Source: Cyanobacteria bacterium REEB417 (GTDB lineage: Bacteria > Cyanobacteriota > Cyanobacteriia > PCC-6307 > Cyanobiaceae). Taken from it: a stretch of 64,000 nucleotides of DNA. The notes beneath the pieces are model-generated. The model did not search any database, had not been told where the DNA came from, and was given only the letters and a program-made list of their open reading frames with translations. The DNA is taken from the NCBI GenBank assembly GCA_018970945.1, contig JAGWVJ010000003.1, positions 1 through 64,000 of the forward strand, given 5' to 3'. The position numbers were made by a program, and so were the translations under genes. Below, piece after piece: positions 34,364 to 49,022 of the stretch (positions are counted from its first letter, which is position 1; each line of letters starts with the position of its first letter).

Positions 34364-34380
<17 letters not shown>
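33889..34380 (+). CDS. YajQ-family cyclic-dinucleotide/nucleotide-binding protein
   Basis: MADSFSFDCVSDFDRQELVNTVDQVRREVGQRYDLKDSGTTIDLEEAALVITTASDMTLQAVEDVLRQKATKRDLS. Confidence 0.94.
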
Positions 34381-38058
<3,678 letters not shown>

Positions 38059-38080
<22 letters not shown>

Positions 38081-38577: not shown

Positions 38578-38748
38578 GGGAGATCAAGGGACAACGACGG
38601 CAAACACCATACGAGGCTTTGGCTGCTGCGCTTGGCTCTGACGCAGCTGTCGTTGCTTGCTGGTCGTTTCGATGGCAATCCATCACAAAGCTCTGCGGCC
38701 TTAACCCGAGCTGCCCATGATGTGGTGGACATCCTGCACACAGGAGCG

Positions 38749-39246
38749 ATGTTCGAGCTGCTCCCGCCGCTCAACGATCACAACCTGCCCTGGATGGACA
38801 CGATCCATCCGATCGTGGTCCATTTTGTGATTGCGATGGGTCTGATTAGTTTTGTGTTTGATCTGATCGGTGTCGCCTTTCGCAAGGTGCAACTGTTCGA
38901 GGTCAGCTTCTGGAACCTGCTGTTTGCCACAGCAGCCATTTTCGTGGCCATCATCTTTGGCCAGGTCGAGGCAGGCCTGGCCGCCCCGTACGGTGCCTCC
39001 CGCGACATTCTCAATTTGCACAGCACGATCGGCTGGTCCCTGGCCGGGGTGTTGTCGCTGCTGTCGGGTTGGCGCTATGTGATTCGCAGCCGCGATCCCG
39101 GGCACCTGCCGATCGGTTTTCTTGGGGCCGGTGCACTGCTGTCGGTCTTGATCGTGGTGCAGGTGACCCTGGGCAACCAATTGATCTGGGTCTATGGGCT
39201 GCACACGGTGCCGGTGGTTGAGGCTGCCCGCGCCGGCTTGGTCTGA
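38749..39246 (+). CDS. DUF2231-like membrane protein
   Basis: MDTIHPIVVHFVIAMGLISFVFDLIG, LHSTIGWSLAGVLSLLSGW, LHTVPVVEAARAG; Met at 38749 assumed. Confidence 0.78.
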   Translation: MFELLPPLNDHNLPWMDTIHPIVVHFVIAMGLISFVFDLIGVAFRKVQLFEVSFWNLLFATAAIFVAIIFGQVEAGLAAPYGASRDILNLHSTIGWSLAGVLSLLSGWRYVIRSRDPGHLPIGFLGAGALLSVLIVVQVTLGNQLIWVYGLHTVPVVEAARAGLV

Positions 39247-39279
39247 GCGATGGCATCTGAGTGTTGGGAGAACATGTTG

Positions 39280-39926
39280 TGACTCATCTGTTGTTGACGA
39301 CTGGCCAGCAGCCGTATGTGGCCGACCCTCCGGCGATCGAACAGCTGGCCTCTGGACTAGGGCCCAATGGCTTGCCCTACAGCCTGCCGATTCACCCGAA
39401 TCTGGTGCACCTGACGATTGGTCTGTTCGTAATTGCGATCGCCTTTGACATCGCTGGTGCCCTCTATCCGATCGAAAAGCGGGTGTTCCGCTTCCTGGCC
39501 CTGCCGATCACCCGGGCCGGCTTTCACGATGTGGGCTGGTACAACCTGCTGGCTTGTGCCGTGGCCACCTTCTTCACCGTGGCCGCCGGTTTCTACGAAA
39601 TGCTTCTGGCCCAACCGATCCCGGGTGTGACGAGCACCATCGGTTTGCAGAGCATGCAGACGATGCTCTGGCACGGGGTTGGCGGCGTCGCCATTCTTCT
39701 GGTGATTATCGCCATGACTGTGTGGCGTGGTTATCAGCGTTTTCGTTGGCGTCGCGACATGGGGCGACAGGTCCAGTGGCTCTACTTGCTTGTGGGCCTC
39801 GTTTTGTTTTTGGTGATCGGCCTGCACGGCACTCTCGGTGCTGAGCTGGCTGGTGAGTTCGGAGTGCACGTGACTGCCGATCAACTGCTCGCTTCCGGTG
39901 CCAATCTCAAGGAGGCTCTGCCATGA
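39280..39926 (+). CDS. DUF2231-like membrane protein
   Basis: PIHPNLVHLTIGLFVIAIAFDIAGALYPIEKRVFRF; MQTMLWHGVGGVAILLVI; IGLHGTLGAELAGEFG; start codon uncertain (39261 or 39280). Confidence 0.78.
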
Positions 39927-40867
39927 CCAGTGCGTCGCCACAGAAACCGCGTTTCACACTGCTGTCGATGCTCGGCCTGGCGCTTTTGGTGCTTGTGCTG
40001 GTCGCCCTGAGCTGGTGGATGGGCCAGCAGGCTTACCATTGGTTGCCGGTGCAGGCATCGACAGCTGCACCGTTGGTGGATGGCCTGTTCAGTTTTGAAA
40101 CCGCTGTCGGCACCTTTGTGTTTGGCGGTGTCGTGGCGGTGATGATCTGGGTTGTGCTGATGCACCGGGCCGAGAAATACGACGAGACCGACGCCGAGCC
40201 GATCGAGGGCAATACCAAGCTTGAAGTGATCTGGACGGCCATTCCATTTGTGCTGGTGATGGCGATTGCGGTGTATGCCATCCGGGTCAACACCAGCCTG
40301 GGGGTCTTGGGTCCGATGGAGCACATTCATCAAGACAATCCTGCGGAGGAGATTGGGGGGTATCCCGGCGACCGCTTGCCGGCAGAAGCCATCGAGGTGG
40401 TTGCTCGCCAATGGTCGTGGGAATTCCGCTATCCAGCTGCCAATGTCTCTTCTACTGAGCTGCACCTGGCAGTGGATGAGCCCGTCACCTTCCGGTTGGT
40501 GTCGGAAGATGTCCTGCACGGATTCTTTGTTCCCGCCTTCCGTCTGAAGCAGGACGTTGTCCCTGGGCGGGCAATCAACTTCAACCTGACGCCAACCCGT
40601 GAGGGTCGCTATCGCCTTCGAGACTCCCAGTTCAGCGGTACTTGGTTTGCAGCCAATCAGGCTGATGTTGTTGTCGAAAGCGGCGATGCCCATGCTGCCT
40701 GGTTGAAGCAGGCAGAAAAACTTCCGCTTCAGAGTGGCATCAGTGATGCGGTTGATGAATACGCCGCGCGCGCCAAAAAAGCCAATCCCGGCTGGGCCAC
40801 CGTGCCGCCTGCTCCACCCCCTCAGGTCAATGTGCCTGGTTCTAACAACCTCCCCCATGACGCCTGA
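39923..40867 (+). CDS. ctaC: Heme-copper oxidase subunit II lacking the CuA site (ARTO-like)
   Basis: VARQWSWEFRYPAANVSSTELHLAVDEPVTFRLVSEDVLHGFFVPAFRLKQDVVPGRAINFNLTPTREGRYRLRDSQFSGTWFAANQADVVVES; CuA Cys/His/Met motif replaced. Confidence 0.92.
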   Translation: MTSASPQKPRFTLLSMLGLALLVLVLVALSWWMGQQAYHWLPVQASTAAPLVDGLFSFETAVGTFVFGGVVAVMIWVVLMHRAEKYDETDAEPIEGNTKLEVIWTAIPFVLVMAIAVYAIRVNTSLGVLGPMEHIHQDNPAEEIGGYPGDRLPAEAIEVVARQWSWEFRYPAANVSSTELHLAVDEPVTFRLVSEDVLHGFFVPAFRLKQDVVPGRAINFNLTPTREGRYRLRDSQFSGTWFAANQADVVVESGDAHAAWLKQAEKLPLQSGISDAVDEYAARAKKANPGWATVPPAPPPQVNVPGSNNLPHDA

Positions 40868-40876
40868 GTAGATCCG

Positions 40877-42559
40877 ATGACACTTGCGACCTTCCCAGCC
40901 AGCGAACCCAAGCCGAGTTGGACCCGCTATTTCAGCTTCAATACTGACGCCAAGGTGATTGGTATTCAGTACATCGTGCTGGCGTTCTTCTTCTTCTTAA
41001 TCGGTGGCCTTTTGGCCATGATCATTCGCGGTGAGCTGATCACGCCTGAGGCCGATCTGGTCGATCGCACCGTGTACAACGGCATTTACACGATGCACGG
41101 AACAATCATGTTGTTCCTGTTCATTTTTCCAGTGCTTAATGGACTCAACAATTTGTTGATTCCGACGATGATCGGCGCGCCGGACATGGCCTTCCCCAGA
41201 CTCAATGCTGTCGCGTTCTGGCTGGTGCCGATCTTCGGAACCCTGCTGATCGCCAGTTTCTTTGTGCCCGGGGGTCCCGCCTATTCAGGTTGGTGGTCCT
41301 ATCCGCCGGTGAGCGTTCAGAACCCTCTGGGCCATCTGGTGAACGGTCAGGGCATGTGGCTGACTGCAGTCGCCCTCTCCGGTGTGTCTTCGATCATGGG
41401 GGCAGTCAATTTCGTCACCACGATCATTCGCATGCGGGCGCCTGGGATGACCTGGTTTCGGATGCCTGTGTTCTGCTGGACGGCACTGGCTGCCCAAAGC
41501 CTTCAGTTGATTGGTTTGCCTGCTCTCACGGGAGGCGCCATCATGCTGCTGTTTGACTTGGTCGCCGGCACCACGTTCTATGACCCTTCGGGTGGTGGAG
41601 ATCCGGTTCTCTATCAGCATTTTTTCTGGTTCTATTCCCACCCTGCGGTGTATGTGATCATCCTGCCGGTCTTCGGGATTTTCTCTGAACTCTTCCCCGT
41701 TTATGCCCGCAAGCCGTTGTTCGGCTATGTGTATGTTTCCTTAGCCTCGTTCATCATTGTAGGCCTTGGCTTGATCGTGTGGGTGCACCACTTCTTCACC
41801 AGTGGCGTTCCCCAATGGATGCGCAACCTGTTCATGGTTAACACCATGCTGATTTCGGTGCCTACAGGCGTCAAAGTTTTTGCCTGGTTAGGCACCCTGT
41901 GGCGAGGCAAGATTCGCTTGACCACCCCAATGCTCTTTTGCCTTGGCGGTCTGTTTAACTTTGTGTTTGCTGGCATCACCGGTGTAATGCTTGCGACAGT
42001 TCCAGTTGATATTCACGTCAGCAATACTTACTTTGTTGTGGGTCATTTCCATTATGTTATCTACGGTGCCGCTGTTATGGGAATTTTCGCGGCTATCTAT
42101 CACTGGTTCCCGAAATTCATCGGTCGCATGCCCTACGAGGGCCTAGGTAAGCTTCATTTTCTGCTCACATTCATCGGTGCCAACCTCAATTTCCTGCCAA
42201 TGCACCCTTTGGGGCTGATGGGAATGCCGAGGCGGGTGTCGAGCTATGACCCCGAGTTCGCATTCTGGAATGTGCTGGCCAGTCTGGGTGCCTTTCTGCT
42301 TGGGGTTTCGATCATTCCTTTTCTTCTGAACATGATCAGTTCCTGGATTCGTGGTCCCAAGTCCACGCACAATCCATGGAATGCCATCGGGCTGGAGTGG
42401 TTGTTGCCCTCACCACCGGCTGAGGACAATTTTGGAGAACACGTGCCGGTTGTGATCTCCAAGCCCTACGGCTATGGACTCGGTAAACCCCTTGTGGAAC
42501 ACCAAGCTGAGATTGAACAAGCCCTCACCGCTGCTGAACTTCAGGAGTCCTCGCGATGA
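40877..42559 (+). CDS. ctaD: Heme-copper oxidase subunit I (YSHP-type)
   Basis: FWFYSHPAVYVIILPVFGIFSE; WVHHFFTSG CuB histidines; SVPTGVKVFAW; VGHFHYVIYGA heme ligands. Confidence 0.96.
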   Translation: MTLATFPASEPKPSWTRYFSFNTDAKVIGIQYIVLAFFFFLIGGLLAMIIRGELITPEADLVDRTVYNGIYTMHGTIMLFLFIFPVLNGLNNLLIPTMIGAPDMAFPRLNAVAFWLVPIFGTLLIASFFVPGGPAYSGWWSYPPVSVQNPLGHLVNGQGMWLTAVALSGVSSIMGAVNFVTTIIRMRAPGMTWFRMPVFCWTALAAQSLQLIGLPALTGGAIMLLFDLVAGTTFYDPSGGGDPVLYQHFFWFYSHPAVYVIILPVFGIFSELFPVYARKPLFGYVYVSLASFIIVGLGLIVWVHHFFTSGVPQWMRNLFMVNTMLISVPTGVKVFAWLGTLWRGKIRLTTPMLFCLGGLFNFVFAGITGVMLATVPVDIHVSNTYFVVGHFHYVIYGAAVMGIFAAIYHWFPKFIGRMPYEGLGKLHFLLTFIGANLNFLPMHPLGLMGMPRRVSSYDPEFAFWNVLASLGAFLLGVSIIPFLLNMISSWIRGPKSTHNPWNAIGLEWLLPSPPAEDNFGEHVPVVISKPYGYGLGKPLVEHQAEIEQALTAAELQESSR

Positions 42560-43155
42560 CTACCGCTTACCCCACTCCGACTGAGCCGAAAGAACATACG
42601 GCTGAGCACGAGAAGCACAACCTCACTGGGTTCATCATCTTTCTCTGCTCAGAAAGTGTCATTTTTCTGGCCTTCTTCAGCGGATATGCGTTGCTCAAAA
42701 CCAGCGCGCTTGATTGGTTGCCGGCTGGTGTCGATGGGCTTGAATGGCAGATGCCACTGATCAACTCGGTGGTATTAGTGTCCAGCTCCGGAACCATCTA
42801 TCTTGCCGAGCGGGCCAAGGCAAGAGGAAGCATCTGGGGCTTTCGCGGTTTCTGGCTGCTGACCATGGCGCTTGGGTCCTATTTCCTCTATGGCCAGGCG
42901 GTGGAGTGGAGTGGTCTCGAGTTCGGCTTCACCTCTGGAACCTTTGGCGGCACGTTCTACCTGCTAACTGGATTCCATGGACTGCATGTCGCTACTGGGG
43001 TTGGCTTGATGACATTGATGCTGATCAAGTCATTCATTCCTGGCAATTACGACGGTGGTGAACAGGGCGTTGAGGCCACGTCACTGTTCTGGCACTTTGT
43101 CGATGTCATCTGGATCATCCTTTTTCTCCTCATCTACGTCTGGCAGCGGAGTTGA
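42556..43155 (+). CDS. ctaE: Heme-copper oxidase subunit III
   Basis: GFIIFLCSESVIFLAFFSGYALL; TGFHGLHVATGVGLMTLMLI; FWHFVDVIWIILFLLIYVW. Confidence 0.95.
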   Translation: MTTAYPTPTEPKEHTAEHEKHNLTGFIIFLCSESVIFLAFFSGYALLKTSALDWLPAGVDGLEWQMPLINSVVLVSSSGTIYLAERAKARGSIWGFRGFWLLTMALGSYFLYGQAVEWSGLEFGFTSGTFGGTFYLLTGFHGLHVATGVGLMTLMLIKSFIPGNYDGGEQGVEATSLFWHFVDVIWIILFLLIYVWQRS

Positions 43156-43158
43156 CCC

Positions 43159-44676
43159 ATGATCATTGATGACACCCATTACGACGTGATCGTCATCGGC
43201 AGCGGAGCTGCCGGTGCCACTGTCGCCAATAGCCTGGGCCAGCGCAGTTTCAAGGTGCTGTTGCTCGAGCGCGGTGGTGTGATGCCACTCGCTGATCAGA
43301 ATGTCGCTGATGTGGATTTGTTCCGTAAGGATCGTTATCACCCACCAGAGCAGTGGGTTGGAACCGATGGTGATCCCTTCTCGCCTCAAGCGATCTATGC
43401 CTTTGGTGGCAACACCAAGATCTGGGGAGGGGTACTCGAGCGCATGCGCGAGCGCGAGTTCGAGGGCCTCCATCTCCAGCAGGGGAAGGCACCGGCCTGG
43501 GGATTCAACTATGACGCCTTTGAACCTTGGTATGAGAAAGCCGAGGCGATGTATTGCGTTCACGGGGCCGCCGGTCTCGATCCTTCCGAACCCAAGCGGA
43601 GTGCACCCTATGGTTCTGCACCCAAGCCGGTGGAGCCGTTTCTCGATGAACTGCGTCAGGGACTCGAACGCCAGGGCGTGCATCCCTACCCTCTGCCGCT
43701 CACCTGGTCAGACTCGGCGGTAGATCCCAGTGGCGATGCCGAGTTGTTCGGGGTCGACCCTGCACGACGCTGCAGCACTCTGACGGTTCGCGGCGGTGCA
43801 ACGGTCACCCAGCTTCATGTCAATGCTGCTGGCACTGAAGTTCGTGGAGTCGAAGCTCAGATTGATGGTCAGCACTGGATGTTCACTGCCCACCAGGTGG
43901 TCTTGGCTGCCGGTGCTCTGAACACCCCGGCGATCTTGTTGCGTTCGGGTTGTGAACGCCATCCCCATGGCTTGGCCAATGGCTCGGATCAGGTCGGCCG
44001 CAACCTGATGAAGTTGCAGCAAACCTCGATCTTGCAGCTTGCTGCAGCGCCCAATTCTGGACGTTACGGTCGCTCCTTTGGCATCAATGATTTTCTCTGG
44101 GGCGACCAGAACGTCAGCTTCCCCCTCGGGGCGATTCAAAATGGGGGTGGCGTGCTGCAGGACGCCTTGTTTGCTGAGTCGCCCCCGGTGCTGTCATTGG
44201 TGACCAAATTGTTGCCCAACTTCAGTCTTGAGCAGCTCGCTTCCCGTTCGATCACTTGGTGGGCCAGCAGTGCTGTTCTGCCCCAGTCTCAGAACCGGAT
44301 CACCCTGCGTCAGGGGCGCATCCAGGTTAATTACACCCCCAATAACCGAGAGGCCCACGATCGCCTCGTCTACCGCTGGATCGATGTGCTGAAAGCCGTT
44401 GAGGCTGATCCCGCGTGTCAGGTCGTCAAGGCGGCTCCCACCCACCCGCGTGGTGAGGCTCCACTGTCTGCCATGGGATCTGCCTGCGGGACTTGTCGAA
44501 TGGGCGACAACCCCGCGACGTCCGTTGTTGATCTTGATGGCAGAAGCCACGAACTGACGAACCTGACGATTGCTGATGCCAGTGTGTTTCCGTCCTGTCC
44601 GATGATGGGATTCGGGCTCACAGTGATCGCCAACGCGCTGCGCATTGCCGATGCTGTGTCGAGCTCCCTGCAATGA
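43159..44676 (+). CDS. GMC oxidoreductase family protein, paralog 1 (lacks predicted catalytic His/Asn positions)
   Basis: YDVIVIGSGAAGATVANSLGQRSFKVLLLERGG; FGGNTKIWGGVLERM; GTCRMGDNPATSVVDLDGRSHELTNLTIADASVFPS. Confidence 0.92.
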   Translation: MIIDDTHYDVIVIGSGAAGATVANSLGQRSFKVLLLERGGVMPLADQNVADVDLFRKDRYHPPEQWVGTDGDPFSPQAIYAFGGNTKIWGGVLERMREREFEGLHLQQGKAPAWGFNYDAFEPWYEKAEAMYCVHGAAGLDPSEPKRSAPYGSAPKPVEPFLDELRQGLERQGVHPYPLPLTWSDSAVDPSGDAELFGVDPARRCSTLTVRGGATVTQLHVNAAGTEVRGVEAQIDGQHWMFTAHQVVLAAGALNTPAILLRSGCERHPHGLANGSDQVGRNLMKLQQTSILQLAAAPNSGRYGRSFGINDFLWGDQNVSFPLGAIQNGGGVLQDALFAESPPVLSLVTKLLPNFSLEQLASRSITWWASSAVLPQSQNRITLRQGRIQVNYTPNNREAHDRLVYRWIDVLKAVEADPACQVVKAAPTHPRGEAPLSAMGSACGTCRMGDNPATSVVDLDGRSHELTNLTIADASVFPSCPMMGFGLTVIANALRIADAVSSSLQ

Positions 44677-47369
44677 CGGCGCCAACGCTGGCTTCATTGT
44701 CGAAGGGGCCCCAGTCAGAGGCTCCATCGGAACTCAGGCGTCTGGCCGAACGGGACCATGGTCATCGCGACTGGTCGTTGTGGGGGAGTTACCTGCCTGA
44801 GCGGCAATGGGGAACCGTTCGTGAGGATTACTCGGCCGATGGGGATGCGTGGCGTTCCTTTCCCCATGACCATGCCCGATCACGGGTGTATCGCTGGGGT
44901 GAGGATGGTTTGCTCGGCATCTGTGATCAACAGTGTCGGCTCTGCTTTTCGCTGGCGCTCTGGAATGGACAGGACCCGATCCTGAAGGAGCGTCCCTATG
45001 GCCTGAGCAATCCGGAAGGTAATCATGGTGAAGATGTCAAGGATTATTTCTTTCATTTGGCGAACACGCCAACCCACAGCTTCATGCGTGGGCTGTACAA
45101 GTATCCGCAGGCAACTTTTCCTTATCAGCAACTTGTTGATGAGAATGCCAGGCGTGGACGTGACCAGCCCGAATATGAGCTTGTCGATACGGGAATTTTT
45201 AATGAAAGCCGTTATTTCGACGTTTTCATTGAGTATGCGAAAGCCTCAGCCAGCGATCTGTTGATCAGCATCCGCGTCATCAATCGCGGTCCAGACCCGG
45301 CACCCCTGACTTTGCTGCCAACCCTGTGGATGCGCAACACCTGGAGTTGGGGGTATCCCGATGAGCGGCAATTGCCTATCCAATTGCAGGGTGACCGGCT
45401 CCAAACTTCTGATATCCCCTCGCTTGGTGTTTACACTCTGGAGTGTGAACAGCCGGGTGAGTGGTTGTTCACGGACAACGAGACCAATCAGGAGCGTCTC
45501 TATGGACAGCCCAATTTAACTCCTTATCAGAAAGATGGCTTTCATCGTTATCTGATTGACGGTGAGCAAGCGGCCATCAACCCCCAGCAACAGGGCACAA
45601 AGGCTGCTCGTCTGCTGCAGCGCATCCTGGCTGCCGGGGAAGAGTGGCAGGTTCGCCTGCGTCTACGCTCTGATGATCATGCTGCAACGCAAGCTTTTGG
45701 TCCCGATTTTGACCGGGTTCTTTCGGAGCGGGAGTGTGAATGGAAGGCCTTTATGGAACATACTGTTCCCAATCTCTCTGATGATGATCGGCTAATTCAT
45801 CATTCAGCCATTGCTGGTTTGTTCTGGGGCAAGAAGTATTACGGCTGGAGTGTGACCCGTTGGCTTGAAGGCGATCCAAACCAGCCGCCACCGCCGCCGA
45901 ATCGTTGGCAGACGGAAACTGCCCATTGGAGCCGGCTTCACGCCCACGACGTGATCTCGATGCCGGATTGCTGGGAGTATCCCTATTTCTGCCAATGGGA
46001 TCTGATGTTTCATGCGGTCGCCTTTGCGATCGTTGATCCACAGACTGCCAAACAGCAGTCGATGTTGTTGCGCACGCCGCACTACACGGCACCCAATGCT
46101 CAGACCCCGGCCTATGAGTGGGCGCTGTCAGACCCGAACCCGCCGATTGGGGCTTGGGCTGCGATGCGCATTTTCCAGATTGAGCGCAAGCAGTATGACC
46201 GAGCCGATCTTGCTTTTTTGCGCTCTGCATTGCGAAAACTGCTGCTTGAATACGGCTGGTGGGCCAACCGTAATGATCGCTCTGGCGACAATGTGTTTGA
46301 AGGCGGTTTTCTAGGGCTTGATAACATTGCAATCTTTGATCGCCGCTTTCACCTTGCTGACGGCAGTCGCATTGAGCAGTGTGATGGTACCGCCTGGATG
46401 GCGTCGTTGAGCCTGAACCTGTTGTCCATTGCTGTCGAACTATCGACTGAAGAGTCTGAGTATGCCGATCTTTGCGAGCGTTTTGTTTACGATTTCGTGC
46501 AGTTGGCGTTGACGCTGAACACGCCTGGCCAGAGGGGGTATGTGAATTGGGATGAGCAGGATGGTTTTTATTACGATGTCATCAAGCGGCCTGACGGCAG
46601 TACTGATTTTCTGCGGACACGTTCATTGACTGGCTTGATTCCGCTGCTCGCTGTAGCCAGTTTTGATGTTGAGACGGTTTCTAGGCTTCCGGTCCTTGAT
46701 GTTCTCAAGAGCATGCGTTGGTTCGTACATGAACGCACCACGCCAACCTGGTTGGCGGCAAACCTGGGCCAATGGCGCAATGACCGTTTGCTGTTCACCC
46801 TCGTTCCGGAGGACCGGCTGCGGCGCATCTGCGAGCGGCTGTTTGACGAGGATGAATTTCTTTCGCCCTACGGATTAAGGGCCCTATCGAAGGTCTATGG
46901 CGATAACCCCTATCAGTTCACAGAGGGCGGTGACCATGAGGTTCTGTCCTATTCACCTGCGGATAGTCCGGTGGCCATGTTTGGTGGGAATTCCAATTGG
47001 AGAGGCCCCGTGTGGATGCCGACCAATTTTCTGCTGATCGAATCTCTGCAGAAGTTTGCCCATTTCTATGGCGATAGCTTCAAGGTCGAATTCCCGACCC
47101 GATCGGGCAATTGGTTGAACCTCTGGGAGGTTTCCCTGGAGCTTGAGCGTCGCCTTGTTGGCATTTTCCGACGTGATGCCGATGGACGCCGCCCTTTCAA
47201 TGGTGATGTCGAGCTGTTTCAGCAGGATCCTCATTGGCGGGATCTGATCCAGTTCAATGAGTATTTTCACGGTGACAGTGGCCGGGGTATCGGTGCCTCG
47301 CATCAGACAGGTTGGACGGCCACAGTGGCCAAGATGATCAACCAGCTCAGCCGCTATCCGAGCGGGTAA
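44673..47369 (+). CDS. GH63/MGH1-like glycoside hydrolase
   Basis: ERQWGTVREDYSADGDAWRSFPHDHARSRVYRWGEDGLLG; WEYPYFCQWDLMFHAVAFAIVDP; NWRGPVWMPTNFLLIESLQKF; GASHQTGWTATVAKMI. Confidence 0.88.
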   Translation: MTAPTLASLSKGPQSEAPSELRRLAERDHGHRDWSLWGSYLPERQWGTVREDYSADGDAWRSFPHDHARSRVYRWGEDGLLGICDQQCRLCFSLALWNGQDPILKERPYGLSNPEGNHGEDVKDYFFHLANTPTHSFMRGLYKYPQATFPYQQLVDENARRGRDQPEYELVDTGIFNESRYFDVFIEYAKASASDLLISIRVINRGPDPAPLTLLPTLWMRNTWSWGYPDERQLPIQLQGDRLQTSDIPSLGVYTLECEQPGEWLFTDNETNQERLYGQPNLTPYQKDGFHRYLIDGEQAAINPQQQGTKAARLLQRILAAGEEWQVRLRLRSDDHAATQAFGPDFDRVLSERECEWKAFMEHTVPNLSDDDRLIHHSAIAGLFWGKKYYGWSVTRWLEGDPNQPPPPPNRWQTETAHWSRLHAHDVISMPDCWEYPYFCQWDLMFHAVAFAIVDPQTAKQQSMLLRTPHYTAPNAQTPAYEWALSDPNPPIGAWAAMRIFQIERKQYDRADLAFLRSALRKLLLEYGWWANRNDRSGDNVFEGGFLGLDNIAIFDRRFHLADGSRIEQCDGTAWMASLSLNLLSIAVELSTEESEYADLCERFVYDFVQLALTLNTPGQRGYVNWDEQDGFYYDVIKRPDGSTDFLRTRSLTGLIPLLAVASFDVETVSRLPVLDVLKSMRWFVHERTTPTWLAANLGQWRNDRLLFTLVPEDRLRRICERLFDEDEFLSPYGLRALSKVYGDNPYQFTEGGDHEVLSYSPADSPVAMFGGNSNWRGPVWMPTNFLLIESLQKFAHFYGDSFKVEFPTRSGNWLNLWEVSLELERRLVGIFRRDADGRRPFNGDVELFQQDPHWRDLIQFNEYFHGDSGRGIGASHQTGWTATVAKMINQLSRYPSG

Positions 47370-47390: not shown

Positions 47391-49022
47391 TTGAATCCAA
47401 TGCAGGACCTCAACGGGCCCACCTGGTCCCAGTCACCCTTGCCGCAGACCAACCAGCTGACGGTGAGCAATGGTGACCACTTCGATGTGGTCATCATCGG
47501 CAGTGGTGCCGGCGGCGGAACCCTTGCCCGCGTTCTTGCTCCCACTGGGTTGAAGATCCTGGTGTTAGAACGGGGTGATTGGTTGCCGCAGGAGCCCGAG
47601 AACTGGGATGCCGATGCGGTCTTCCAGCAGGGTCGTTATCTGTCGAAGGACATCTGGACCGATAAGCACGGCAAGCCTTTTCAGCCGGGCAGTCATTACT
47701 TTGTCGGCGGCGCCACCAAGATGTATGGCGCTCACCATTTCCGCCTGCGCGCTCGCGATTTCGAAGAGCTGGTGCATGTGGATGGCATTTCCCCAGCCTG
47801 GCCCCTGCGCTACAGCGACTTTGAGCCCTGGTATCAGATGGCAGAGGAGATGTATCACGTCCATGGCTTGCGCGGCGAGGACCCGACAGAGCCGCCGGCC
47901 AGCCAGCCTTACCCCCACGCGCCGATCTCACACGAGCCACGCATCGCCAAGCTGGCTGAGGACCTACGCGCCGCCGGCCTGAACCCGTTCCATGCCCCGA
48001 GCGGGGTGATGCTGGATGAGGCCAACATGGCTTTCAGCCGTTGTCGGCGCTGCAACAACTGTGATGGCTTCCCCTGTCTTGTTCATGCCAAAAGTGATGC
48101 CGAGGTGATAGGCATCAGGCCTGCCCTTGGACAAGCCACTGTCTCCCTGCTGACCAGGGCAGAGGTCAAGCGTCTGGAAACCGACCCTTCCGGCCGCACG
48201 GTTCAGTCTGTTCATCTGGAGCGGGATGGCGAGCCAATGCGGGTCAGTGGTGATCTGGTTGTGGTCAGTTGTGGCGCGGCCAACACCGCCCGTCTGTTGT
48301 TGATGTCGGCCAATGACAAGCACCCCCGCGGTCTGGCGAATGGTAGTGATCAGGTGGGACGGAATTACATGTTCCACAACAGCAAGGCGGCAGTTGCCTT
48401 ATCGCACGAGCCGAATCCGACGGTTTTTCAGAAGACGATCTCAGTCAACGATTGGTATTTCGGTGATGCTGATTTTGACTTCCCGATGGGCAATGTTCAG
48501 ATGACGGGTAAGACCCGTGGTGCGATCATGAAGGGCTATGCACCAATCGAGACTTTTCTGATGCCGAATTGGTCGATGGACAAGATCGCTGAACACTCTC
48601 TTGATTTTTGGGTGTCCACCGAAGATCTTCCTGATCCTGATAACCGGGTGACAATCACCGCCGACGGAGCGATCAATCTTTCCTACACTCCGAACAACCA
48701 ATCTGCAGCTGATCACCTGTGGAGCCGTTTGCAGACCTTGCTGGATCGTTTGTATCTCAAAGACCATCTGGTTGAACGCCAGGTCTACATCAAAAATGCC
48801 ATGGGTATTGCTGCCGTCGGTCACCAGGCGGGCACCTGTCGTTTCGGAACGGATCCATCCACGTCGGTGCTGGATGTGAATTGCAAGGCCCATGAGCTTG
48901 ACAACCTCTATGTTGTCGACACCAGCTTTTTCCCGAGCATCGGTGCCGTCAACCCGTCGCTGACGGCGATTGCCAATGCCATTCGCGTTGGCCATCACCT
49001 GCGCGAGCGGCTGGTTCGCTGA
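47391..49022 (+). CDS. GMC oxidoreductase, paralog 2, with Cys-rich motif
   Basis: FDVVIIGSGAGGGTLARVLAPTGLKILVLERGD; CRRCNNCDGFPCLVHAKSDAEV; GHQAGTCRFGTDPSTSVLDVNCKAHELDNLYVVDTSFFPSIGAVNPSLT. Confidence 0.93.
   Translation: MNPMQDLNGPTWSQSPLPQTNQLTVSNGDHFDVVIIGSGAGGGTLARVLAPTGLKILVLERGDWLPQEPENWDADAVFQQGRYLSKDIWTDKHGKPFQPGSHYFVGGATKMYGAHHFRLRARDFEELVHVDGISPAWPLRYSDFEPWYQMAEEMYHVHGLRGEDPTEPPASQPYPHAPISHEPRIAKLAEDLRAAGLNPFHAPSGVMLDEANMAFSRCRRCNNCDGFPCLVHAKSDAEVIGIRPALGQATVSLLTRAEVKRLETDPSGRTVQSVHLERDGEPMRVSGDLVVVSCGAANTARLLLMSANDKHPRGLANGSDQVGRNYMFHNSKAAVALSHEPNPTVFQKTISVNDWYFGDADFDFPMGNVQMTGKTRGAIMKGYAPIETFLMPNWSMDKIAEHSLDFWVSTEDLPDPDNRVTITADGAINLSYTPNNQSAADHLWSRLQTLLDRLYLKDHLVERQVYIKNAMGIAAVGHQAGTCRFGTDPSTSVLDVNCKAHELDNLYVVDTSFFPSIGAVNPSLTAIANAIRVGHHLRERLVR

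Follow-up and report, generated by a model that had tools for sequence, protein, structure and literature searches.

A cyanobacterial ARTO operon with a CuA-less subunit II, and the question of its electron donor

Introduction

How does a terminal oxidase receive electrons when its subunit II has lost the CuA center? This question is raised by a 64,000-nucleotide stretch of DNA from a cyanobacterium (the window), in which a sequence-only reading had recognized an oxidase subunit II gene of the alternative respiratory terminal oxidase (ARTO) type with an erased CuA ligand motif. ARTO is a heme-copper oxidase with no CuA in its subunit II; the Anabaena operon alr2729-alr2730-coxB3-coxA3-coxC3 encodes a type-1 ARTO, and the enzyme has been termed a quinol oxidase (PMC6616624). 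The ctaC2-D2-E2 genes of marine picocyanobacteria have a proposed role in iron reduction (PMC10119275; PMC7676907), and ARTO is reported from 85% of Synechococcus reference genomes and from low-iron Prochlorococcus (PMC10119275). ARTO is thus widespread and linked to iron reduction, yet its donor has been assumed by analogy with the bo3 oxidase. We found that the earlier finding reads a known enzyme correctly and that the gene is an ordinary member of its family. There is no bo3 quinol site, and a flavoprotein gene and two DUF2231 genes travel with ARTO, which gives concrete candidate genes that can be tested.

The oxidase locus

The window comes from a 1.96-Mb genome that is 79% complete, and the genomes closest to it are those of freshwater picocyanobacteria of the Cyanobium/Synechococcus type. 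The oxidase genes lie in a tight plus-strand block that begins with two DUF2231 membrane proteins, continues with subunits II, I and III, and ends with a GMC flavoprotein and a GH63/MGH1-like protein (Table 1). The first gene probably starts at the Met codon used by its relatives in the alignment, although the program-made ORF opens at 38632.

Table 1. Features of the ARTO block, in window coordinates
Feature	Position	Strand	Basis
DUF2231 membrane protein a (alr2729/alr2730 type), first gene of the operon	38749..39246	+	Pfam DUF2231, E 4.8e-33
DUF2231 membrane protein b	39261..39926	+	Pfam DUF2231, E 2.9e-39
ARTO subunit II (ctaCII), CuA lost, zero Cys	39923..40867	+	Intact 314-aa ORF; Pfam COX2_TM and COX2
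His199 in E-D-V-L-H-G-F, first CuA ligand position, kept	40517..40519	+	Alignment
Erased CuA loop, R-D-S-Q-F-S-G-T-W-F-A-A-N	40619..40657	+	Translation and alignment
ARTO subunit I (ctaDII), A2-type	40877..42559	+	Pfam COX1, E 1.1e-153; residue table; tree
ARTO subunit III (ctaEII)	42556..43155	+	Pfam COX3, E 1.3e-31
GMC-family flavoprotein (GMC1)	43159..44676	+	Pfam GMC_oxred_N/C
GH63/MGH1-like glycosidase	44673..47369	+	Start overlaps the GMC1 stop codon

Almost all of the 80 related loci show the order DUF2231-DUF2231-II-I-III, with exceptions mostly on short or cut contigs, and this order is also annotated on the Nostoc edaphicum plasmid pNe_5 (L105). On that plasmid (2880-11629), the ARTO operon stands next to a GMC gene and cytochrome bd genes, which follow it. 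The glycosidase gene is present in Cyanobium-type loci and not in WH5701-type loci. By our own reading of the sequence, a large hydantoinase/5-oxoprolinase-like protein is encoded upstream of the block at 34364-38080, as it is in many relatives. We took the 325-aa minus-strand ORF at 39881-40858 for a shadow of the oxidase gene.

The CuA site of subunit II

CuA has two His ligands, and the full ligand set of CuA cytochrome c oxidases is C, C, H, H, M. In the window subunit II only the first His of this set remains; the other four of the five side-chain ligands have been replaced, three of them family-wide. The loop D-S-Q-F-S-G-T-W-F-A-A-N, as first read, was confirmed both by translation within the intact ORF and by alignment. 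Against the CuA subunit that this genome encodes at another locus (CAELCGPYHGGM, contig C58), the first Cys has become Asp234, the Glu Gln236, the second Cys Ser238, the second His Phe242 and the Met Asn245. By comparison, both Cys, both His and the Met are kept in 23/23 CuA-type subunits.

How general are these changes? In every relative that covers the site (80/80 at each position), Asp stands for the first Cys, Ser for the second Cys and Phe for the second His. This uniformity excludes a sequencing error and marks the D/S/F replacement as a fixed trait of the family. The claim that both Cys, the His and the Met are replaced therefore holds for the Cys pair and the second His, but it misses the first His, His199, which is kept in 81/81 relatives and in 29/29 members of a wider ARTO set. 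Loss of the Met is true of the window protein and of its lineage: Asn stands there in 67 of 80 close relatives, whereas 23 of the 29 wider ARTOs have Met, and this is where the window lineage differs from known ARTO. We also looked for a Cys pair elsewhere in the protein, the observation that the sequence-only reading had itself named as contrary to its claim, and found no Cys in all 314 residues.

The upstream scaffold was said to be kept, and subunit II does retain its cupredoxin scaffold, with the copper pocket refilled by Asp, Ser and Phe. The replacement of the second Cys by Ser and of the second His by Phe also occurs in CyoA of four bo3 quinol oxidases. However, the first ligand position is His in ARTO and Asn in 4/4 CyoA proteins, so the pockets seem to have been filled separately in the two groups.

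Subunit I and the bo3 quinol site

By the residue table, subunit I keeps H106, H284, H333, H334, H419, H421, Y288, D135 and K362 (E. coli numbering), which comprise every ligand of heme and CuB, the Tyr that forms the cross-link, and those residues of the D and K channels that were checked. With these in place, subunit I should reduce O2 and probably pumps protons. Its A2 motif, Y-S-H-P-A-V-Y, has Ala at the position of E286, a feature common to cyanobacterial CtaD.

The quinol site of bo3 has been described as a cluster of R71, D75 and H98 plus residue 101, printed as Glu101 (PMC10256718) but Gln in the E. coli sequence that we used as reference; R71 and D75 are also placed in the site by PMC9731990. 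The window subunit I has I, L, V and G at R71, D75, H98 and Q101. The set was found in no ARTO that we aligned, and it is kept in 4/4 CyoB controls. CtaD proteins likewise do not have it, and therefore there is no sign of a bo3-like quinol site in ARTO.

Phylogeny separates the two enzymes as well. In a maximum-likelihood analysis of 46 subunit I sequences, a set lacking those of Synechocystis and Anabaena 7120, the ARTO proteins group in a single clade (100/100) that is sister to cyanobacterial CtaD (joint fork 100/99), and CyoB lies far off, with the window protein outside its clade. By this placement beside CtaD and away from bo3, the cyanobacterial line lost CuA on its own, in an event separate from the loss in bo3.

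Altogether, the assignment to ARTO stands, on the motif, the operon and a supported clade. The locus shares with other cyanobacterial ARTOs (ctaCII-DII-EII; alr2729-alr2730-coxB3A3C3 of Anabaena; ctaC2D2E2 of Prochlorococcus and Synechococcus) the CuA-less subunit II, the A2-type subunit I, the upstream DUF2231 pair and the single subunit I clade. The bo3 ubiquinol oxidase (CyoABCD) resembles it in the CuA-less subunit II with Ser and Phe at the same positions, but differs in the first CuA position, the quinol-site residues, the subunit I clade and the residue at E286. It differs, too, in gene content, since no CyoD-like (subunit IV) gene follows subunit III in the window, where GMC and glycosidase genes stand instead. 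The aa3 cytochrome c oxidase of cyanobacteria (CtaC-CtaD-CtaE) has the same fold and the closest kin of subunit I, but there CuA is complete.

The electron donor

What, then, feeds this enzyme? The donor cannot be read from the missing CuA alone. Since both bridging Cys and one His are gone, we infer, in agreement with the sequence-only reading, that cytochrome c is unlikely to be the direct donor. The quinol oxidase implied by the same reading accords with the name used in the literature (PMC6616624), but since the bo3 quinol-site residues are absent this part is weaker than was stated: quinol as donor is something that we infer, and the quinol step is without structural support. Plastoquinol is nevertheless our first choice, because the enzyme is membrane-embedded and has no CuA. 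We read the locus as an ordinary cyanobacterial ARTO, a heme-copper O2 reductase of three subunits whose genes stand behind those of two DUF2231 membrane proteins, and one that is probably fed by plastoquinol at a site unlike that of bo3. Electrons would pass from the membrane straight into subunit I, with plastoquinol as their most likely source, and the enzyme may give the cell a second outlet for electrons next to its normal CuA oxidase. Two things that ARTO subunit II retains count against this explanation, the His at the first CuA position and a Q-W-x-W motif untypical of cyanobacterial CtaC.

Could the operon partners feed the oxidase instead? Here the GMC flavoprotein would oxidize a substrate or pass on electrons, the DUF2231 proteins would act as b-type cytochromes that deliver them across the membrane to subunit I, and quinol would take part indirectly or be unused. 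We consider this unlikely, although several observations favor it, among them the missing bo3 quinol site. The Cyanobiaceae genomes that have GMC1, 60 of 101, are precisely those that have ARTO (Fisher p about 3e-29, a value that overstates independence because the genomes are related and the genes are neighbors). Genes that lie side by side do not give independent evidence by occurring together. GMC1 lies within about 4 kb of ARTO in the Cyanobiaceae rows that were checked, and adjoins it in most of the 80 loci, being missing mainly at contig ends. In a sample across the phylum, the gene adjoins ARTO in 8/8 genomes with a high-scoring ARTO outside family f7, which is probably Nostocaceae. However, the ARTO operons of f7, a large family, have the DUF2231 pair and no GMC gene after subunit III, and the gene is also missing beside four lower-scoring ARTOs of family f6; one genome (G036) has a GMC relative and no ARTO. 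Our literature search found no paper joining GMC proteins with cyanobacterial terminal oxidases.

The sequence of GMC1 points both ways. Its best match in sequence and fold is fructose dehydrogenase (E 1.7e-30), and among proteins of solved structure it stands nearest to the flavin subunits of membrane fructose and glucose dehydrogenases, which suits an input role. Unlike those FAD-dependent enzymes, GMC1 does not conserve the usual catalytic His and Asn. Residues vary at the His position (S441), where 8 of 36 relatives have His, and the Asn position (G484) is G or S in relatives, with Asn in one of the 36. The same loop carries a nearly invariant CxxC (C443, C446), and no partner subunits of the dehydrogenase kind were seen. 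A GMC1 paralogue encoded at 47391-49022 keeps the canonical His and Asn and has a Cys-rich insert (CRRCNNCDGFPC).

The DUF2231 proteins give a similarly divided picture. In the alignments, H59, H64, H130 and H191 of protein a are invariant, as are H45, H50, H138 and H203 of protein b, in which H189 is also conserved at 90% or more. The four invariant His of each protein lie in or near predicted helices, which hints that the proteins may bind heme, and in Calothrix-type loci they keep higher identity than subunit II does. The AlphaFold model of protein b has four helices (pTM 0.66) but no significant match in the PDB fold search, and a profile search likewise returned no solved relative. A known b-type cytochrome fold was considered for DUF2231 and rejected (best profile E 0.032; no fold match below E 0.66).

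A broader proposal can be built on the same genes: in picocyanobacteria and several other lineages, ARTO might be a six-gene module in which the non-canonical GMC protein and the two His-rich DUF2231 proteins form a dedicated input that replaces both CuA and the bo3-type quinol site. We regard this, too, as unlikely.

That a soluble carrier (cytochrome c6 or plastocyanin) passes electrons directly to heme, with subunit II offering a docking domain free of copper, is less probable still. The conserved scaffold, the first CuA His and the aromatic Q-W-x-W patch would fit a docking surface, but no ARTO examined has kept either bridging Cys or the second His, and the changes at the second Cys and second His match those of CyoA. 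Moreover, we know of no A-type oxidase in which electrons enter directly without CuA. Finally, a degenerate gene or an assembly error has practically no standing given the intact ORF and operon, and the 80/80 conservation rules out a sequencing error or pseudogene.

If ARTO is fed by plastoquinol, as we favor, which other outlets does this cell have? The genome encodes the complete CuA oxidase on contig C58. Cytochrome bd was not found in it, a weak absence at this level of completeness, and in the search of the genome for alternative oxidase (PF01786) no control matched.

Variants of the locus were seen in other lineages. Pseudanabaena-type loci have extra ORFs between ARTO subunits II and I (L074, 6908-8146; L080, 6875-7429), one product of which is a conserved small Cys-containing protein, and a third Pseudanabaena locus (L073) has a similar gap. 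Outside cyanobacteria, an Alteromonas plasmid (L112) carries a DUF2231 gene at 1135-1605 beside coxB-ctaD and adjoining a CopD gene.
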